Part shown: piece after piece, positions 3,368 through 12,691 of the stretch
Layout: every line of letters starts with the position of its first letter
How positions within the stretch are numbered: position 1 is the first letter of the stretch
DNA from: Gemmata sp.
GTDB taxonomy: Bacteria > Planctomycetota > Planctomycetia > Gemmatales > Gemmataceae
Assembly (NCBI GenBank): GCA_025055115.1
Contig: JANWYJ010000073.1
Coordinates: forward strand, 1-64,000
Length of the DNA stretch: 64,000 nucleotides
Reading direction: 5' to 3'
Made by a program: the position numbers and the translations under genes
Notes under the pieces: model-generated
What the model saw: only the letters and a program-made list of their open reading frames with translations
The model's database searches: none
What the model was told of the DNA's origin: nothing

Positions 3368-4795
3368 TCACGCGAGAGCTTTTTCGATGACTTCGCCACC
3401 GACATCGGTGAGGCGTTCATCGCGGCCATTGTGGAGGTATGTGACCTGTTCGTGGTCTAAACCCAGCAGGTGCAGGATCGTGGCATGGAAATCATTGACG
3501 CTGATGGGGTCTTCGACGGCTTTAAGGCCGAATTCATCGGTAGCCCCAACCACCGTACCACCTTTGACGCCGCCACCGGCCAGCCACATGGTGTAGCCCA
3601 GGGGGTTGTGGTCGCGACCTTTGCCACCTTGGCTGTTGGGGGTTCGCCCAAATTCACTGCACCAGACCACCAGCGTGTCTTTCAGCAATCCGCGGTGTTT
3701 GAGGTCACGCAGGAGGGCGGCAATGGGTTGATCGACGTGGCCACACATTTTCTCGTGATTTTCGTTCACGTTATCATGGGCGTCCCACTGCATGACGATG
3801 GGGCCACCCCCGCTATAGACGCTGACGAACCGCACGCCGCGTTCGATCAGCCGCCGGGCCAGAAGCAAGCGCGTGCCGAAATCGGCGGTTTCTTTGCGGT
3901 CCAAGCCATAGGCGCGCTGGGTGGCTTGGGTTTCTTTCGACAGATCAACCGCTTCCGGGGCATGTTTTTGCATGCGGAAGGCCAATTCGTAGCTGGCCGT
4001 GCGGGCTTCGAGTTCGGCATCGCCCCCGGCTTGGGCGGCGTTGAGCTTTTGCACTAAGTGGAAGGACCGTTCGTTTTGCTCGGCTCCCGTATCCGGCGGC
4101 GGCTTCAGGTTGATGATCGGGTTGGGGCCGGGTCGGAAGAGCGTGCCTTGGTAGACAGGGGGCAGGAACCCCGCCGACCAACATGGTGCTCCCCCCTCCG
4201 GTACCCCTTCCGGTTGGGGCATCACACAATACGCAGGCAGGTTCTCACTTTCGCTGCCCAGAGCATAGGTGACCCAGCTACCCAGGCTCGGCCAACCCAT
4301 CAGGGTACGGCCGCTATGCAGTTCGTACATCGCCGGAGCATGTACGGTGCTGGTACACCAGCAGGAACGCAGGAAGCAGATGTCGTCCACGCAGGTGGCG
4401 AGATGGGGCAGCAGGTCCGAGATTTCGATACCACTTTGACCGTGCTTGCGGAACTTGCGGGTACTGGGAATGATCAGTTCTTTGCCCGTGGTGAATTGGC
4501 TTTTGGGTTGGCCGGTGGATTCGGGCAGCGGTTGGCCTTGCCACTTCTCCAGCGCCGGTTTGGGGTCGAAGAGGTCCATTTGGCTGGGACCACCGACCAT
4601 AAACAGAAAGATGACGCGCTTCGCTTTGGGTTCAAAGTGGGGCTTTTTCGGAGCCAGTGGGTTGGCCGGGCGTTTCGTGTTCTCGGCCCGTGCATCCTGG
4701 GCCAAAAGCCAATGGAGGGCGATGCCACCCAAGCCGCCGGCGGCGGCGTATAAAAATTCACGTCGGGATTGGGCCAGAGGGATGTGCGGGGTCAT
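3368..4795 (-). CDS. DUF1501 family protein with twin-arginine signal
   Basis: This 475-residue protein begins with a Tat-type signal ([17 protein letters not shown], residues 10-26). It carries hallmarks of the DUF1501 family, which is related to sulfatase/phosphatase folds: [18 protein letters not shown] near residue 65, [14 protein letters not shown] and [10 protein letters not shown]. It should be exported folded to the periplasm. DUF1501 genes are usually paired with a DUF1549/DUF1553 cytochrome-type partner in planctomycetes. None lies beside this one. The enzymatic activity of the family is unproven. A second DUF1501 gene lies at 17216-18640. Confidence 0.93.
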
Positions 4796-4935
4796 ATCGT
4801 TAGCGTACTCATTCGACCGACGAACTGCAAGAACTTGCTGCCATCGTGGTATTCTTCGGTGGTTCGGTATACGCTTGGCCGCGTCAGCGGCGCGCTGGCG
4901 TCAGCGGCAATGCGCTGGTTTCAGGAGAAAAGTGT

Positions 4936-5340
4936 ATGTTTTGGGCGGTTCTGATTGTGCGGGTGTTGGTGGGGCTACCGTTTTTGGTGTTTGGGTTGAA
5001 TCATTTTGTTCCCTTTCTCACCATGCCGTCGCCGCAATTTCCCGAAAACGCTCTGAAGTTCCTCGGAGCGATCGGTTCGACGCCGTATATGGATGTGGTG
5101 AAAATACTGGAAGTGGTGGGGGGAGCGTTGATCCTATCGGGCCGGTTTGTGCCACTGGGGTTGGTGATGGTGACGCCGGTGGCCGTGAATATCGCGCTAT
5201 TTGACCTGTTTTTGGTCGGTCAGCCGGGTTTGGGGGTGGCCTTAGCAATACTGTGTTTTGTTCTGGTGGTGGCTTATCGGTCGCATTTTGCCGGTGTTTT
5301 CGCCTTCAAACCGCAGTGCGGGTCGTCTCGTCTTAGTTAA
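4936..5340 (+). CDS. DoxX-like integral membrane protein
   Basis: The 134-residue protein has four hydrophobic segments and the DoxX-like opening IVRVLVGLPFLVFGLNHF. I chose the ATG at 4936 because AGGAGA lies 8 bp before it (4923-4928); an upstream in-frame start at 4846 would add a polar extension of 30 residues unlike this family. DoxX-family proteins are small quinone- or redox-associated membrane proteins of varied function, so the role is not assigned. The stop-codon region (5336-5349) is partly duplicated at 5355-5368. Confidence 0.85.
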   Translation: MFWAVLIVRVLVGLPFLVFGLNHFVPFLTMPSPQFPENALKFLGAIGSTPYMDVVKILEVVGGALILSGRFVPLGLVMVTPVAVNIALFDLFLVGQPGLGVALAILCFVLVVAYRSHFAGVFAFKPQCGSSRLS

Positions 5341-5403: not shown

Positions 5404-7476
5404 ATGCGGTGGTGGGTGGTTATTGTGGGCTGGGGGGTAGTCTCATGGCCAGCGTTGGCGGCCGAGATACCGCTGGCGGCTTGTGCGTGGGTGCGGGCCG
5501 AGAACGACACGGCTGGTTCGGGTTTCCTCGTCGATGTTGACAATCGCTTGTTGGTGACCTGCCGGCATGTGGTGGCCGAACGCAAAAAAGTGGATGTGTA
5601 CTTCCCATGGGTTACTGATGGCCACCTGCAGACCGATCGTCGCGAGTACTTGCGGAACCGTGACTGGCTTCGCGAACAGAAGCTTCTCGTCACTGGGACG
5701 GTGCAAACCACAAGCGACGCCCTCGATGTGGCTGTCCTCCAATTGGACCACCTTCCGCCTCAGGCTCGGGCCATCACTTGGGCTACTCAACCAGCATACG
5801 TCGGGGAAACTCTTGCCGTCGTGGGTAATCGGCTGGATGTCGATACTCTTTGGAATCGGACCACTGGACCGCTTCGGGGTGCCGGGCGGTTGGCGGAGGG
5901 GTACTTCTGGCGTGGTCAGAAACTCGCGGTGGCAGCCCCAGTTCTGATTGCCCAGTTGCCGATTGAGGAAGGCGATTCGGGAGGGCCGGTCTTCAACGCC
6001 CGCGGGGAATTGGTGGGTATGGCCTGTGCGCTCCGCCGGCAATGCCCTCTGGCGGCTGTCGTCATTGCGGGGGAAGCGATCCGTCGTTGGATGCATCCAC
6101 CGGAGGCCACCCCACGCCATCATCCCCGACCGATTGTCGAAAGTCTCTGGCGAGCAACGGTTTGGGTGAAGCCCACAGCCACCAACCGGCACCTGGCCGG
6201 GGTACTGATCGACCGGGATTGGGTGCTCACCTGCGCTCAGGGCCTTCAAGCCGGGGATCGTGTCGGGATCGCCTTTCCCCAGCGTGACCGCGACCAATGG
6301 GTTGGTGAACGCGACGCCTATGGCGACCCCTTGACCCTGCATCTCCACGGATTCTGGCGGAGCGGAACGATCCTTGCCTGCGATTCCCAGCGTGACTTGG
6401 CTCTGATTCGCCTCGATTCCACCCCGGCGGCGATGAAACCGGTGAGCCTCGCCACCACACTGCCCCAACCGGGTGAGGAAATTCACCTGATGAACCACCC
6501 CGGTGGGTTGGAATTTGCCTGGGTTTATGCGAGCGGAACCGTACGGCAACGCGGCAAACTGGCCCTCCAACTCGGCGATCAGGCCAAACGAGTGGGCGTG
6601 TTGGTTTGCCAACTGCCCGTGCAGGCCAGTTCACCGGGTGGCCCTATTCTCAATACCCGCGGACAGTTGGTTGGTATTCTGGCGGCGCGCGAAGGGGCGC
6701 AGATGGTGGCGTATTGCGCCACCGTGGAGGAAATTCGGATTTTTCTTGATGTGGCGGGCCGCTATCAGCCCGCCCGCACGCTGGCTGGGTGGCGTGCCCG
6801 CGTCGCATCCTGGCTGGCTCAATACCCATCACGGCTGGCTCGGGCCATCGTCTACCGGGCTGAGGAACATCGCCAGGCGGGCCGGTTCGAGGAAGCCCAA
6901 CGCGATTGTGCCGCGGCCCTGGCCCTCGATGCGCGGTGTATTGCTGCCCGATTGTGCCGAGTGAAGATGCTACCCCCCGCGGACGCGATGGCCGAACTTG
7001 ATACCGCCATCGAGAAAGGGCCTTTCCATCGCGAGGTGTTGCTGGTGCGTGCCCGGGCTGCCGCGGCCGCGAAAGATTGGCGGAAAGCACGCGGCGATCT
7101 GGAACGAGTTCTCGATGTCGAGCCGGCCGATGCGGAAGCGCGGCAGTTATTGATCCGCGTACTACTGAACCTGGGTGACGATACGAAAGCCGCGGCCGCT
7201 GTACGCGATACGCTGCGTGCGGATGCGAAGCGCCTGGCTGCAGTCGCGGCGGATCTGCTCGCGCAGAGCGAATCACTGCAGAAACGCTTTCCGGATTCAC
7301 CAACGATTGCCGCCGATTGGCTCCACCGTGCACTGGAAGCCGCGGGTCAGGGCATATCCGCCCAGCCGGTTCGAATGCAGATCGCAACCCTTCTGCAAGC
7401 AGCCTCCGCAGCTAAGACCCCGGCCGACCGATTGCAGATTCTCCGCGAGGGTGTTCAAAAATTGGCCAGTGATTGA
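5404..7476 (+). CDS. Secreted tandem trypsin-like protease with degenerate second domain and TPR tail
   Basis: The 690-residue protein has a signal peptide (residues 1-20) and then two trypsin-like domains. The first (about 25-225) has a full triad: His55 in TCRHVV, Asp108 in LDVAVLQ and Ser192 in GDSGGP. The second (about 245-450) keeps the fold signatures, but the aligned residues are Gln279 in TCAQGL, Asp331 in RDLALIRL and Pro411 in SSPGGP, so His and Ser are lost. A helical repeat region resembling TPRs occupies about 475-690. The likely picture is one active DegP/S1-like unit with a pseudoprotease and a protein-binding tail. ATG 5404 starts the signal peptide. Confidence 0.88.
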   Translation: MRWWVVIVGWGVVSWPALAAEIPLAACAWVRAENDTAGSGFLVDVDNRLLVTCRHVVAERKKVDVYFPWVTDGHLQTDRREYLRNRDWLREQKLLVTGTVQTTSDALDVAVLQLDHLPPQARAITWATQPAYVGETLAVVGNRLDVDTLWNRTTGPLRGAGRLAEGYFWRGQKLAVAAPVLIAQLPIEEGDSGGPVFNARGELVGMACALRRQCPLAAVVIAGEAIRRWMHPPEATPRHHPRPIVESLWRATVWVKPTATNRHLAGVLIDRDWVLTCAQGLQAGDRVGIAFPQRDRDQWVGERDAYGDPLTLHLHGFWRSGTILACDSQRDLALIRLDSTPAAMKPVSLATTLPQPGEEIHLMNHPGGLEFAWVYASGTVRQRGKLALQLGDQAKRVGVLVCQLPVQASSPGGPILNTRGQLVGILAAREGAQMVAYCATVEEIRIFLDVAGRYQPARTLAGWRARVASWLAQYPSRLARAIVYRAEEHRQAGRFEEAQRDCAAALALDARCIAARLCRVKMLPPADAMAELDTAIEKGPFHREVLLVRARAAAAAKDWRKARGDLERVLDVEPADAEARQLLIRVLLNLGDDTKAAAAVRDTLRADAKRLAAVAADLLAQSESLQKRFPDSPTIAADWLHRALEAAGQGISAQPVRMQIATLLQAASAAKTPADRLQILREGVQKLASD

Positions 7477-8788: not shown

Positions 8789-11700
8789 ATGGCGATGAGT
8801 GTGCATCCGACTCAACCGCAAGCCCCAGGCGTCGTCAGCGATCCCCGCGCGCGGACGTCGGCCCCTGGGATCGGCCATTACATTCATAAAGTCCTCAAAC
8901 CGCTCGCGTCGCTGCAATTGACGGTTGTGTTGTTCGCCCTCGGCATGCTGTTGGTCTTTTTCGGCACCCTCGCCCAGATGGACTACGGTATCTGGACCGT
9001 GGTCGACAAGTATTTCTGGTCCTGGTTTGTGATGGTGCCGTTCGAATTGTTCCACAAGTTCCTGGGTGTGTTCTGGAAAGAACAATTTCCCCCCGATAGC
9101 TCCCCTTGGAGCGGAGCGTTCCCCTTTCCAGCCGGCAAGCTCCTGGGCGGATTGATGCTCATCAATCTCCTGGCCGCCCATGCCATCCGCTTCCGGCTGA
9201 CGTGGAAACGGGCCGGCATCTTTCTCATCCACAGTGGCCTGATTCTGTTGTTTGTCGGGGAATTCATTACACGCGAATTCGCCATTGAACAGCAGATGAC
9301 GATTGATGAAGGATCATCAACCAATTTCACCATCGATACACGCAACGTCGAACTGGCGTTTGTCGATCGTTCCAGCCCCACGGAAGACAAATACACCGTC
9401 ATCTCCCAGCGGCGCCTGCGTGCTGCAGCCCAATCCGGCGAGCGTATTCGCCACCCCGATTTGCCGGTGGATGTCGAGGTGGTGAAATACATGAAAAACT
9501 CGGACCTGCGCGACGTCGGCCCGGGGTTGGAAAACCCGGCCACGGCGGGCTTTGGCAAAATGGTGGTAGCTGTTGAAGCCAAGGAGGAAGCCGGTGTCGA
9601 AACCAAGCAACGCGGCGATGTCGCGTCGGCCTATGTCCGCTTCTATCACAAAGAGACGGGGGAAGACCTCGGCTGCTATCTGGTGTCGTTGTACATTTCG
9701 GCCCAAGGGCATGCCGACAAAATCCGCGTCGGTGAAAAGGAGTACGAAGTTCTCCTGCGCCAGGCGCGCTATTACAAACCGTATCGTGTTCACCTCGATG
9801 AATTCCGCTTTGATCGCTACATCGGGACCAACAAACCGAAGAATTACTCCAGCGATGTCCGGGTTTACGATGCGGAAGGGAATTTGGTCCGCGAAACGCG
9901 CATCGCGATGAACGAACCGATGCGCTATGCCGGCGAGACGTTCTATCAGGCCGACTTCGATAAAGAAACCGAAAAGACCACCATTCTGCAAGTGGTGAAG
10001 AACCCTGGCTGGATCGACCTGTGGTTTTTCCAAGCCTCGGTCGATTACATCGCCTGTGCGTTGGTGGGGATCGGCTTGGTGTTGCACTTTAGCATCTACC
10101 TGATTCAATTTCTGCTGCGTCAACCCACCAGTCGATCGGCGCGGGTGGAAGCGACGGTGTCCACCGCAGCACCTCCGGAGACGAATCCGACGCCGCACTC
10201 ACCGGTCACGTTATCACGCATCTTCCCGTGGGTGATGTTGGCCGTTGCAGGTTTCTTCCTGCTCTCTGTTTATGGCCGGATGACCCCCCGTTCCCACAAA
10301 GAACCGTATGATGTGGATTCTTTCGCTCGTATCCCGGTCATTGAAGGGGGCCGTGTCAAACCCCTGGAAACGGTGGCCCGCGTCTACATGCGGCTGATCT
10401 CGCACCGCGAAACGTTCGTAGATGAAAACGGCACAACGCAGCCGGCGATTCGCTGGTATCTCGACGTGATTGCCGCTCCGTCGATGGACGACAACTCCCC
10501 GGCCTGGCATCATCGCGTTTTCCGCATTGAAAACGATCAGATTCGCCGTGATTGGAAGCTCGAACAACGCGAAGGTCTGCGCTATTCATATGCGGAGCTG
10601 CGGCCCCACCTCGCGGACCTCGAACGGCGCGTCTTTACCGCGCGTTCCAAGGCCCGGGCCAAAAAACCGCTCGATCTGGCGGAGTCCAAATTGATCGAAT
10701 TGGAAGAGCGGATCGAGATGGTGCGCAGTCTTCATCAGCTCAAGGGCCTGAACTCGCAGGGGAAAGACACACTGCGGCTGATTCCGCCCCACGACGACCA
10801 AAGCTGGGCCTCGCTGGGGGCGATCCGCGATGCCGCCGACCTGGCCGGACTGCGGGCCGCTCAAGAAGCTCTCCAGAAACACAAACAGCGGCTCTTCCAA
10901 CTCCCCGATGAGGTCAACCGGCGGATCGTCAAACTCGTCGCTCGACTGGATTTGGATCAGGTCGATGAACGCAATCAGGTTGAGCTGCTGGTGCGCGTTG
11001 TGCGGCTGATGCAAACCCCGGTGGATGAGATTCCCGCCGATTTCCTGGCCAGCATCTTGCCGAATCTGCTGGAAGCGACCCTTCTGGCCCTGCCGGCGGA
11101 CGAAGCCGCTCGCCTGCGCGCCGCCATCGATAACGACTACCACCATCGCATCGCGGCCTCCCCGGCCGCCAGCCTATGGCTGCGGATGATCCACGCCTAC
11201 CGCGACAACAAGCCGATTGAATTCAACAAAGCCGTGGCCGAGTATCACGATACACAATTGGACGGCATCAGCACGGCTGACCTTTTGCGGACTCGGGTCG
11301 AAGTGGTTTACAACCGCTTTGCCCCCTTCTATCAATGCACCGGGTTGTATGTTCTGGGCTTTGTGCTGGCGATCGTGGGCTTTGTCCTGTACGCCGCGGA
11401 ATCGCCACCGTGGGCCGTGGCCCTGCGCCGATCGGCCACGTTGGTTTTACTGCTGACGCTGCTTGTTCACACCGCGGCCCTGATTGCGCGGATGTACATC
11501 ATGGAGCGGTGGGGCGTGTTTGTGACCAATCTGTACTCCTCGGCGATTTTCATTGGTTGGGGTTGCGTGGCGTTGTGTTTGATTCTCGAACGGATCTTCC
11601 CGATTGGTGTGGGCAATGTGGTAGCGGCCATTTTGGGCCTGGCGACCAGCATTGTGGCCCACAACCTTGGTACGCAAGACACGCTCGAAATGATGGAAGC

Positions 11701-12691
11701 CGTTCTCGACACCAACTTCTGGCTGGCCACGCACGTCACGACGGTGACACTGGGCTACACGGCGACGTTCGTGGCGGGGTTCCTCGGCGCGGTGTACGTG
11801 CTGATGATGCTGGGGGCCGTGATTCGCGATTCCTTCCGCAACACGCGTGAACCCACAAGCGGGGAGCTGGTGGCCTTTGGTGCTGCCGCCGTGGGGGTTG
11901 TGGGCTTGCCGCTGGCGCTGGTGTGGTTCATCACCGGGGCTTTGGAAAAATTTGAAGTGCTACCGAGTACGGTGCTCCAGGGGATTTACTATCTGGCGTT
12001 GGCTACGGGCATTATCTATGCCTTCACCCTGATGCTCTTACGCATCACCCACACAACAGGACCGGCTTCGGGCCAGTCGCCGGCCGGAGCCTTGCCCGGG
12101 TTGGTGCAACCGATCGCGGCGTTGGGCCTCACCCCCGAAAGCAGCAAAATTCTCGGCCAGATGATTTACGGCGTGGTATGTTTTGCCACCCTGCTGAGCT
12201 TTGTGGGCACGGTGTTGGGGGGCATTTGGGCTGATCAGTCGTGGGGGCGCTTCTGGGGCTGGGACCCGAAAGAGAACGGCGCGGTGCTCATTGTTTTGTG
12301 GAACGCCCTGATCTTGCATGCCCGTTGGGCGGGTTTGGTCAAGGAGCGTGGTGTCGCGGTGCTGGCCATTTTCGGCAACATCGTGACAGCGTGGAGCTGG
12401 TTTGGCACCAACCAACTGGGCATCGGTTTGCATGCCTACGGTTTCGATAGCCGGCTGGCGGATGGTTGCTTCAACTTCTGGGCCAGTCAGCTTTTCATCC
12501 TCGGCTTAGGGTTCATTCCGCGGCAGTTTTGGTCGCAGTCACTGACCATCACACGCCTGCCGGCGGCAGCGTCGCTGCCGGGTGGGGTCGCCGCCAGCGG
12601 CTCCGGTGGGCCAGCCGGTGGTGTATCGGAACATAGCGGCAACGGCCCCGCCCGCCGCGACCACGAGAAACGCGCCGGGAAACGCCGTTAG
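8789..12691 (+). CDS. Fused ResB-ResC (Ccs1-CcsA) cytochrome c synthase
   Basis: The 1300-residue protein joins both subunits of the system II cytochrome c heme lyase. The N-terminal half (about 35-450) is ResB/Ccs1-like, with membrane helices and a large periplasmic domain. A periplasmic helical insert of about 350 residues (510-850) follows. The C-terminal half is ResC/CcsA-like, with many helices and the heme-handling tryptophan-rich motif WGRFWGWDPKENGA near residue 1150. It exports heme and attaches it to CxxCH motifs of apocytochromes. GAGG precedes the start; ATG 8795 is a possible alternative. The last 35 residues are a Gly/Ser/Arg tail. A strong terminator follows at 12758. Confidence 0.93.
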   Translation: MAMSVHPTQPQAPGVVSDPRARTSAPGIGHYIHKVLKPLASLQLTVVLFALGMLLVFFGTLAQMDYGIWTVVDKYFWSWFVMVPFELFHKFLGVFWKEQFPPDSSPWSGAFPFPAGKLLGGLMLINLLAAHAIRFRLTWKRAGIFLIHSGLILLFVGEFITREFAIEQQMTIDEGSSTNFTIDTRNVELAFVDRSSPTEDKYTVISQRRLRAAAQSGERIRHPDLPVDVEVVKYMKNSDLRDVGPGLENPATAGFGKMVVAVEAKEEAGVETKQRGDVASAYVRFYHKETGEDLGCYLVSLYISAQGHADKIRVGEKEYEVLLRQARYYKPYRVHLDEFRFDRYIGTNKPKNYSSDVRVYDAEGNLVRETRIAMNEPMRYAGETFYQADFDKETEKTTILQVVKNPGWIDLWFFQASVDYIACALVGIGLVLHFSIYLIQFLLRQPTSRSARVEATVSTAAPPETNPTPHSPVTLSRIFPWVMLAVAGFFLLSVYGRMTPRSHKEPYDVDSFARIPVIEGGRVKPLETVARVYMRLISHRETFVDENGTTQPAIRWYLDVIAAPSMDDNSPAWHHRVFRIENDQIRRDWKLEQREGLRYSYAELRPHLADLERRVFTARSKARAKKPLDLAESKLIELEERIEMVRSLHQLKGLNSQGKDTLRLIPPHDDQSWASLGAIRDAADLAGLRAAQEALQKHKQRLFQLPDEVNRRIVKLVARLDLDQVDERNQVELLVRVVRLMQTPVDEIPADFLASILPNLLEATLLALPADEAARLRAAIDNDYHHRIAASPAASLWLRMIHAYRDNKPIEFNKAVAEYHDTQLDGISTADLLRTRVEVVYNRFAPFYQCTGLYVLGFVLAIVGFVLYAAESPPWAVALRRSATLVLLLTLLVHTAALIARMYIMERWGVFVTNLYSSAIFIGWGCVALCLILERIFPIGVGNVVAAILGLATSIVAHNLGTQDTLEMMEAVLDTNFWLATHVTTVTLGYTATFVAGFLGAVYVLMMLGAVIRDSFRNTREPTSGELVAFGAAAVGVVGLPLALVWFITGALEKFEVLPSTVLQGIYYLALATGIIYAFTLMLLRITHTTGPASGQSPAGALPGLVQPIAALGLTPESSKILGQMIYGVVCFATLLSFVGTVLGGIWADQSWGRFWGWDPKENGAVLIVLWNALILHARWAGLVKERGVAVLAIFGNIVTAWSWFGTNQLGIGLHAYGFDSRLADGCFNFWASQLFILGLGFIPRQFWSQSLTITRLPAAASLPGGVAASGSGGPAGGVSEHSGNGPARRDHEKRAGKRR

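Follow-up and report, generated by a model that had tools for sequence, protein, structure and literature searches.

Among known tandem proteases, plant Deg7, with which the fungal Nma111/Ynm3 proteins are grouped, is one of the closest systems to the one presented here and the parallel with the best documentation. Deg7 combines an active and a degenerate trypsin-like domain in a single chain, an arrangement proposed to stem from gene duplication, and the available parts of two reports describe the degenerate domain as mediating trimerisation (PMC4754418, PMC3473262). In bacteria, the trypsin-like pseudoprotease MamO is paired with an active relative, MamE, that depends on it. According to the available sections of the MamO study, the protein is dead and yet needed for MamE proteolysis, its protease domain binds metal and has a di-His site (H148 and H263), and it cannot help MamE unless it has its TauE domain, the protease domain alone being insufficient (PMC4794232). 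This last requirement makes MamO a loose precedent for the present case. The same sections describe a Thr nucleophile and a blocked oxyanion loop in MamO which, together with the TauE domain, the di-His metal site, and the location of MamO and MamE in two separate genes, set that pair apart from the protein considered here. In this protein, from a species of Gemmata, a degenerate second protease domain lies in the same chain as a first domain whose activity is judged from its triad, as in a Deg7-type tandem. Deg7 is, however, a plant protein with four PDZ domains, whereas the bacterial protein has a TPR-like tail and a probable export signal, and no PDZ domain was found in its 690 amino acids in Pfam up to E 0.1.

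The gene lies in a 64,000-nucleotide stretch of Gemmata DNA, the whole of which was analysed and is referred to as the window. A profile of 17 orthologues was used to search 95 Gemmataceae genomes (E <= 1e-40, scoring up to 12 candidates in each), and the tandem gene was found in 33 of them: the genome to which the window belongs, 16 of the 18 relatives in the same genus (among them G014, whose copy is split over two contigs), and 16 others. With 62 genomes giving no match at 1e-40, the distribution at this depth of scoring is patchy. The same proteins occur in records named Gemmata, Gemmataceae, Fimbriiglobus, Singulisphaera, and Isosphaera, and in plain planctomycete bins. A contig scan with the single protein as query found no relative. 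An even sample of 392 genomes across the phylum gave five matches at E <= 1e-25, and those other than the window's own gene reach no further than roughly the first 224 positions of the profile, the equivalent of one domain; no tandem was found outside the family in this sample, with three candidates scored per genome, which falls short of proving absence. The features of the gene are listed below, with D1 and D2 denoting the first and second trypsin-like domains.

5404..7476, plus strand: tandem trypsin-like protease gene, 690 amino acids plus stop (ORF and translation, Pfam, whole-genome orthologues).
5404..5460, plus strand: probable signal peptide, residues 1-19, a hydrophobic leader ending ...WPALA (read by eye).
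5473..6099, plus strand: D1, residues 24-232, trypsin-like with its triad intact (Pfam PF13365 at residues 38-206; VIA match to DegQ).
5566..5568, plus strand: CAT codon of H55, catalytic His of D1 (His in 33/33 tandem homologues).
5725..5727, plus strand: codon of D108, catalytic Asp of D1 (Asp in 33/33 tandem homologues).
5977..5979, plus strand: TCG codon of S192, nucleophile of D1 within GDSGGP (Ser in 33/33 tandem homologues).
6139..6759, plus strand: D2, residues 246-452, predicted pseudoprotease (D1/D2 alignment; D2-only model; VIA match to DegP).
6238..6240, plus strand: CAG codon of Q279, His position of D2 (D1/D2 alignment; never His in 33/33).
6394..6396, plus strand: GAC codon of D331, Asp position of D2 (Asp in 25/33).
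6496..6498, plus strand: codon of H365, the most constant His of D2, in the HPGG loop (His in 31/33; Gln in L031, Asn in L088).
6634..6636, plus strand: CCG codon of P411, Ser position of D2 within SPGGP (Pro in 23/31 readable copies).
6781..7470, plus strand: all-helical TPR-like tail, residues 460-689 (TPR_19 at 554-617; helices from 460 to 689, pLDDT mostly >90).

This layout agrees with the original prediction of two trypsin-like domains, the first with an intact triad, and a TPR-like tail: in the translated ORF, Pfam identifies two Trypsin_2 stretches and TPR_19, and all 33 copies retain the D1 triad together with G190 of the oxyanion loop. D1 (PF13365, E 1.1e-34) thus has the His-Asp-Ser triad within a trypsin fold that marks a Trypsin_2 / PA-clan serine peptidase, and from that triad it is taken to be an active endopeptidase. 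The leader, which is probably a signal peptide, falls below pLDDT 50 in the whole-protein model; a hydrophobic leader is visible by eye in many of 30 listed homologues, not clearly in all, and the protease would be exported. The whole-protein AlphaFold2 model (mean pLDDT 85.0, pTM 0.80) has two beta-rich domains followed by the helices of residues 460-689, and its best VIA match is DegQ (3stj_A, Z 23.9, 188 aligned, 2.2 A, model range 14-300). Because this search covered mainly D1, D2 was folded and searched alone. The best of five D2-only models had a mean pLDDT of 78.2 (the others ranging from 73.4 to 59.0) and its best VIA match was DegP (1ky9_B, Z 19.3, 179 aligned, 2.4 A), so that D2 is predicted to keep the trypsin fold, as had been suggested from its motifs.

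MarP (Rv3671c) and HhoA/DegP are among the closest solved relatives of D1 and D2 by sequence or fold, and RsgI9, an S1C protein, is among the Foldseek matches listed. Membership of the corresponding named families was rejected, with NCBIfam scores of 59 bits for MarP (cut-off 250), 61.3 for HhoA/HhoB/HtrA (cut-off 450), and 18.9 bits for MamO (cut-off 800). For HtrA/Deg (Do) proteases, the degP_htrA_DO model scored 44.3 bits against a cut-off of 416.2; PDZ domains are missing and residues 460-689 are helical in the model. The PADLOC model RT-Protease_XI resembles the protein in its trypsin-like part, with the best stretch (32-209) falling on D1 and a second stretch also passing (E 5.6e-14), but the protein differs in having no reverse transcriptase by Pfam. 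A defence system was also rejected, since PADLOC matches no more than a trypsin part of generic kind and, weakly, a stretch of LmuA, and nothing else suggests defence. Two genes lie upstream of the protease gene.

4846-5340, plus strand, just upstream: DoxX-like membrane protein gene (Pfam score below the curated cut-off).
3368-4795, opposite strand, upstream: DUF1501 protein gene (77-92% identity in relatives).

Among 30 loci examined, the protease gene is preceded on its own strand by a DoxX-like gene in 9 of the 17 that come from the same genus, counting the window, and also in L068, which comes from a different genus; a few of the loci, such as L017, have little upstream sequence. The DUF1501 gene precedes the protease on the other strand in 8 of 13 named loci, L042 and some others having little upstream sequence. 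As neither gene is constant enough, no function was built on them. Elsewhere in the window, a 1300-residue ORF (8789-12691) matches ResB and cytochrome c assembly (PF01578), and is apparently a fused cytochrome c maturation protein.

The correspondence between the residues of the two domains is based on sequence alignment. BLASTP aligns D1 with D2 at 26% identity over 198 columns (E 3e-18), and a profile-profile alignment (probability 100, 202 columns) agrees; both place H55, D108, and S192 of D1 opposite Q279, D331, and P411 of D2. The proposal that the window protein has Gln and Pro at the His and Ser positions of D2, with the Asp kept, is therefore correct. As an enzyme, D2 lacks the Trypsin_2 / PA-clan triad, with both His and Ser replaced in the window protein and His missing in all 33 copies, and the earlier reading of this domain as catalytically dead is upheld by its sequence. 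The particular substitutions are conserved to different degrees in orthologues. Gln279 is not conserved, being found in the window protein and L008 only: the His position has Arg in 14 copies, Lys in 5, Ser in 4, Gln, Val, Ala, and Thr in 2 each, and Pro and Glu in 1 each. Pro411 is largely conserved, with Pro in 23, Ser in 6, Ala in 1, and Gly in 1 of the 31 readable copies (the position is cut off by contig ends in G014 and G024). Asp331, kept in the window protein, is not constant across the family, and L008, the nearest orthologue, has Glu. In L088 (genome G100), all three triad positions of D2 are altered (Glu, Asn, Gly) and D1 is intact. Positions specific to D2, found in at least 27 of 30 proteins where D1 differs, include P257, A265, D308, G368, E370, E430, and Y437, among others.

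The tail is less constant. In L027, the gene stops directly after D2 and D2 is present where the tail is absent, which points to D1-D2 as the core unit. Among 16 same-genus sequences, the tail is the fastest-changing part (mean pairwise identity 55.6%, compared with 71.0% for D1 and 67.5% for D2). The idea of a scaffolded protease therefore holds as far as the presence of a TPR-like tail is concerned, and is weakened as regards a scaffold role, since the tail diverges fastest and is missing in L027. Genome G002, of the same genus and present as one contig, gives as its best match in the family search a tail fragment of about 75 residues (L087 4579-4806), the only part of the gene within the stretch read; D1 and D2 thus seem to have been lost together there.

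The origin of the two domains was addressed with a tree of 16 D1 and 16 D2 sequences, together with 3 HtrA-like paralogues and 10 relatives that have a single domain. One branch separates all D1 sequences from the rest (support 97/95), and another does the same for D2 (100/100). The stem of D2 is about three times longer than that of D1 (1.0 vs 0.37), which would fit rapid change in D2 once catalysis had been lost. The grouping of D1 and D2 as sisters is weakly supported (91/44). A single old internal tandem duplication in Gemmataceae is thus the likely, though not proven, source of both domains; with sister support at this level, two separate domain gains are the other possibility. D1 also carries features of its own at 5824-5913 (residues 141-170), with R143 in 30/30, D145 in 29/30, and the GY pair at 166-167 in 30/30. 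None of these features is shared by D2, which differs or is gapped in these columns, or by the 10 single-domain relatives, which differ there; such changes within D1 suggest that it, too, specialised after duplication.

All 10 single-domain relatives carry His at the column of the missing D2 His, so that its lack in D2 is a derived state. The sequences are most simply explained by one loss at the root of the tandem family, although the variety of residues that replace His means that it may have been lost more than once. A tree of 30 tandem proteins, with some long outer branches and no star on its deepest forks, places the copies that keep Ser in D2 (L026, L076, L025, L029, L030, and L075) outside the main clade of Pro-bearing proteins. 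Pro is also found in L027 and in L050, with which L075 pairs. By parsimony, the change from Ser to Pro would have happened about three times, or a single time followed by a reversal. In D2, the loss of His thus probably preceded the divergence of the known members, and that of Ser came later.

Whether such a domain is still of use to the cell can be approached through the selection acting on it. It could be a decaying, functionless relic that is carried along by its fusion to D1, and its long stem branch, the variation at its triad positions, and a shift of the reading frame in L075 (genome G080), located at the extreme end of D2, all fit with decay. This frame shift, after which a tail-like stretch continues in another frame (L075 2772-2972), could stem from either mutation or faulty assembly. 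Against decay, D2 reads through to its end without a stop in the aligned copies apart from L075 and the contig-cut G014 and G024, its mean identity within the genus lies close to that of D1, and its modelled fold is kept. In addition, Nei-Gojobori dN/dS values in 10 close pairs were 0.12-0.40 for D1, 0.10-0.34 for D2, and 0.14-0.37 for the tail, with D2 lower than D1 in 7 pairs, tied in 1, and higher in 2; the pairs were chosen by hand, several share a sequence, and several dS values lie near or above 1 and are rough. In these pairs, D2 is under purifying selection much like that on D1. D2 does not look like a relic, and we regard decay as very unlikely. A domain that is maintained could also still be an enzyme, working through residues other than the original triad. 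From residue 246 onwards, D2 has His at 263, 313, 315, 361, and 365, of which H365 is the most constant and could be paired with S410, adjoining P411 and present as Ser in 21 of 31 readable copies; alternatively, the Lys found at the His position in 5 of 33 copies might serve. However, the other 10 copies have Ala, Cys, Glu, or Asp in place of S410, and the residue that most often replaces His, Arg, serves poorly as a base. H365 itself aligns with D1 residue 142, which is mostly His or Asn and is not a triad residue; its loop, which has the sequence GNPG in single-domain relatives (L003 and L035, for example), is poorly modelled, with residues 366-372 below pLDDT 50 in the D2-only model. No conserved pair of His and Ser that could rebuild an active site was found by sequence in the aligned family copies, which leaves the verdict of a dead domain in place and makes a surviving activity in D2 barely credible.

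Since D2 appears dead, has lost its His constantly, keeps its fold, and is maintained by selection, it most likely has a non-catalytic job. One such job would be the binding of a ligand in its own right, for example a metal or a molecule of the cell envelope, without action on D1. MamO offers a bacterial precedent in the available part of its description (PMC4794232), and D2 has conserved polar positions that could contribute (D327 in 30/30, R330 in 29/30, E370 in 28/30, and H365). Yet single-domain relatives often have D327 and R330 as well (8/10 and 6/10) and H365 matches D1 residue 142, so that these positions do not make a clean new motif; H365 is, moreover, missing in L031 and L088. The metal ligand H148 of MamO, which by its numbering precedes the triad Asp149, would correspond to R330, and this position is Arg in 29 of 30 proteins. 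A ligand role of this kind seems improbable. The reading we prefer, at a probability of roughly 0.6, is that of an exported trypsin-like endopeptidase with a live D1 and a pseudoprotease D2 that acts as its built-in non-catalytic partner, a role modelled on plant Deg7 and bacterial MamO. The two domains would have come to share one chain through an ancient tandem duplication in Gemmataceae, after which D2 would have lost His before the members split, and then Ser, while selection kept it for a non-catalytic job. D1 would do the cutting, and D2, packed against D1 or against the D2 of neighbouring copies, would set either the oligomeric state or how accessible and active D1 is; in copies that have it, the helical tail may dock partners or substrates. 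Of the earlier reading, in which the second domain binds substrate or regulates the first, the non-catalytic job is thus supported, with the specific role still a proposal. By analogy, oligomerisation or control of D1 comes close to even odds as the job of D2, while docking of substrates in the old cleft seems unlikely, if somewhat less so than the ligand role.

Pairs of active and dead domains are a known route to enzyme regulation, and pseudoprotease pairs have been described before; what is new here is the bacterial single-chain form with a TPR-like tail, together with intermediate states of loss. In the open-licence literature, we found no account of this tandem family or of a planctomycete tandem protease with TPR. 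A broader reading, which we hold tentatively and lean against, is that a bacterial lineage invented a single-chain protease with its dead twin as an allosteric or oligomerising partner, an independent counterpart of Deg7 with TPR in place of PDZ. If this is true, members of the family preserve intermediate stages, with His lost and Ser kept and then both lost, and the way in which a pseudoenzyme arose could be replayed step by step. The homologues, with 33 copies in a bacterial setting and under measured purifying selection, point to an order of loss with His before Ser. If D2 does control D1, these proteins would offer a compact system in which to test how a pseudoprotease takes over regulation.
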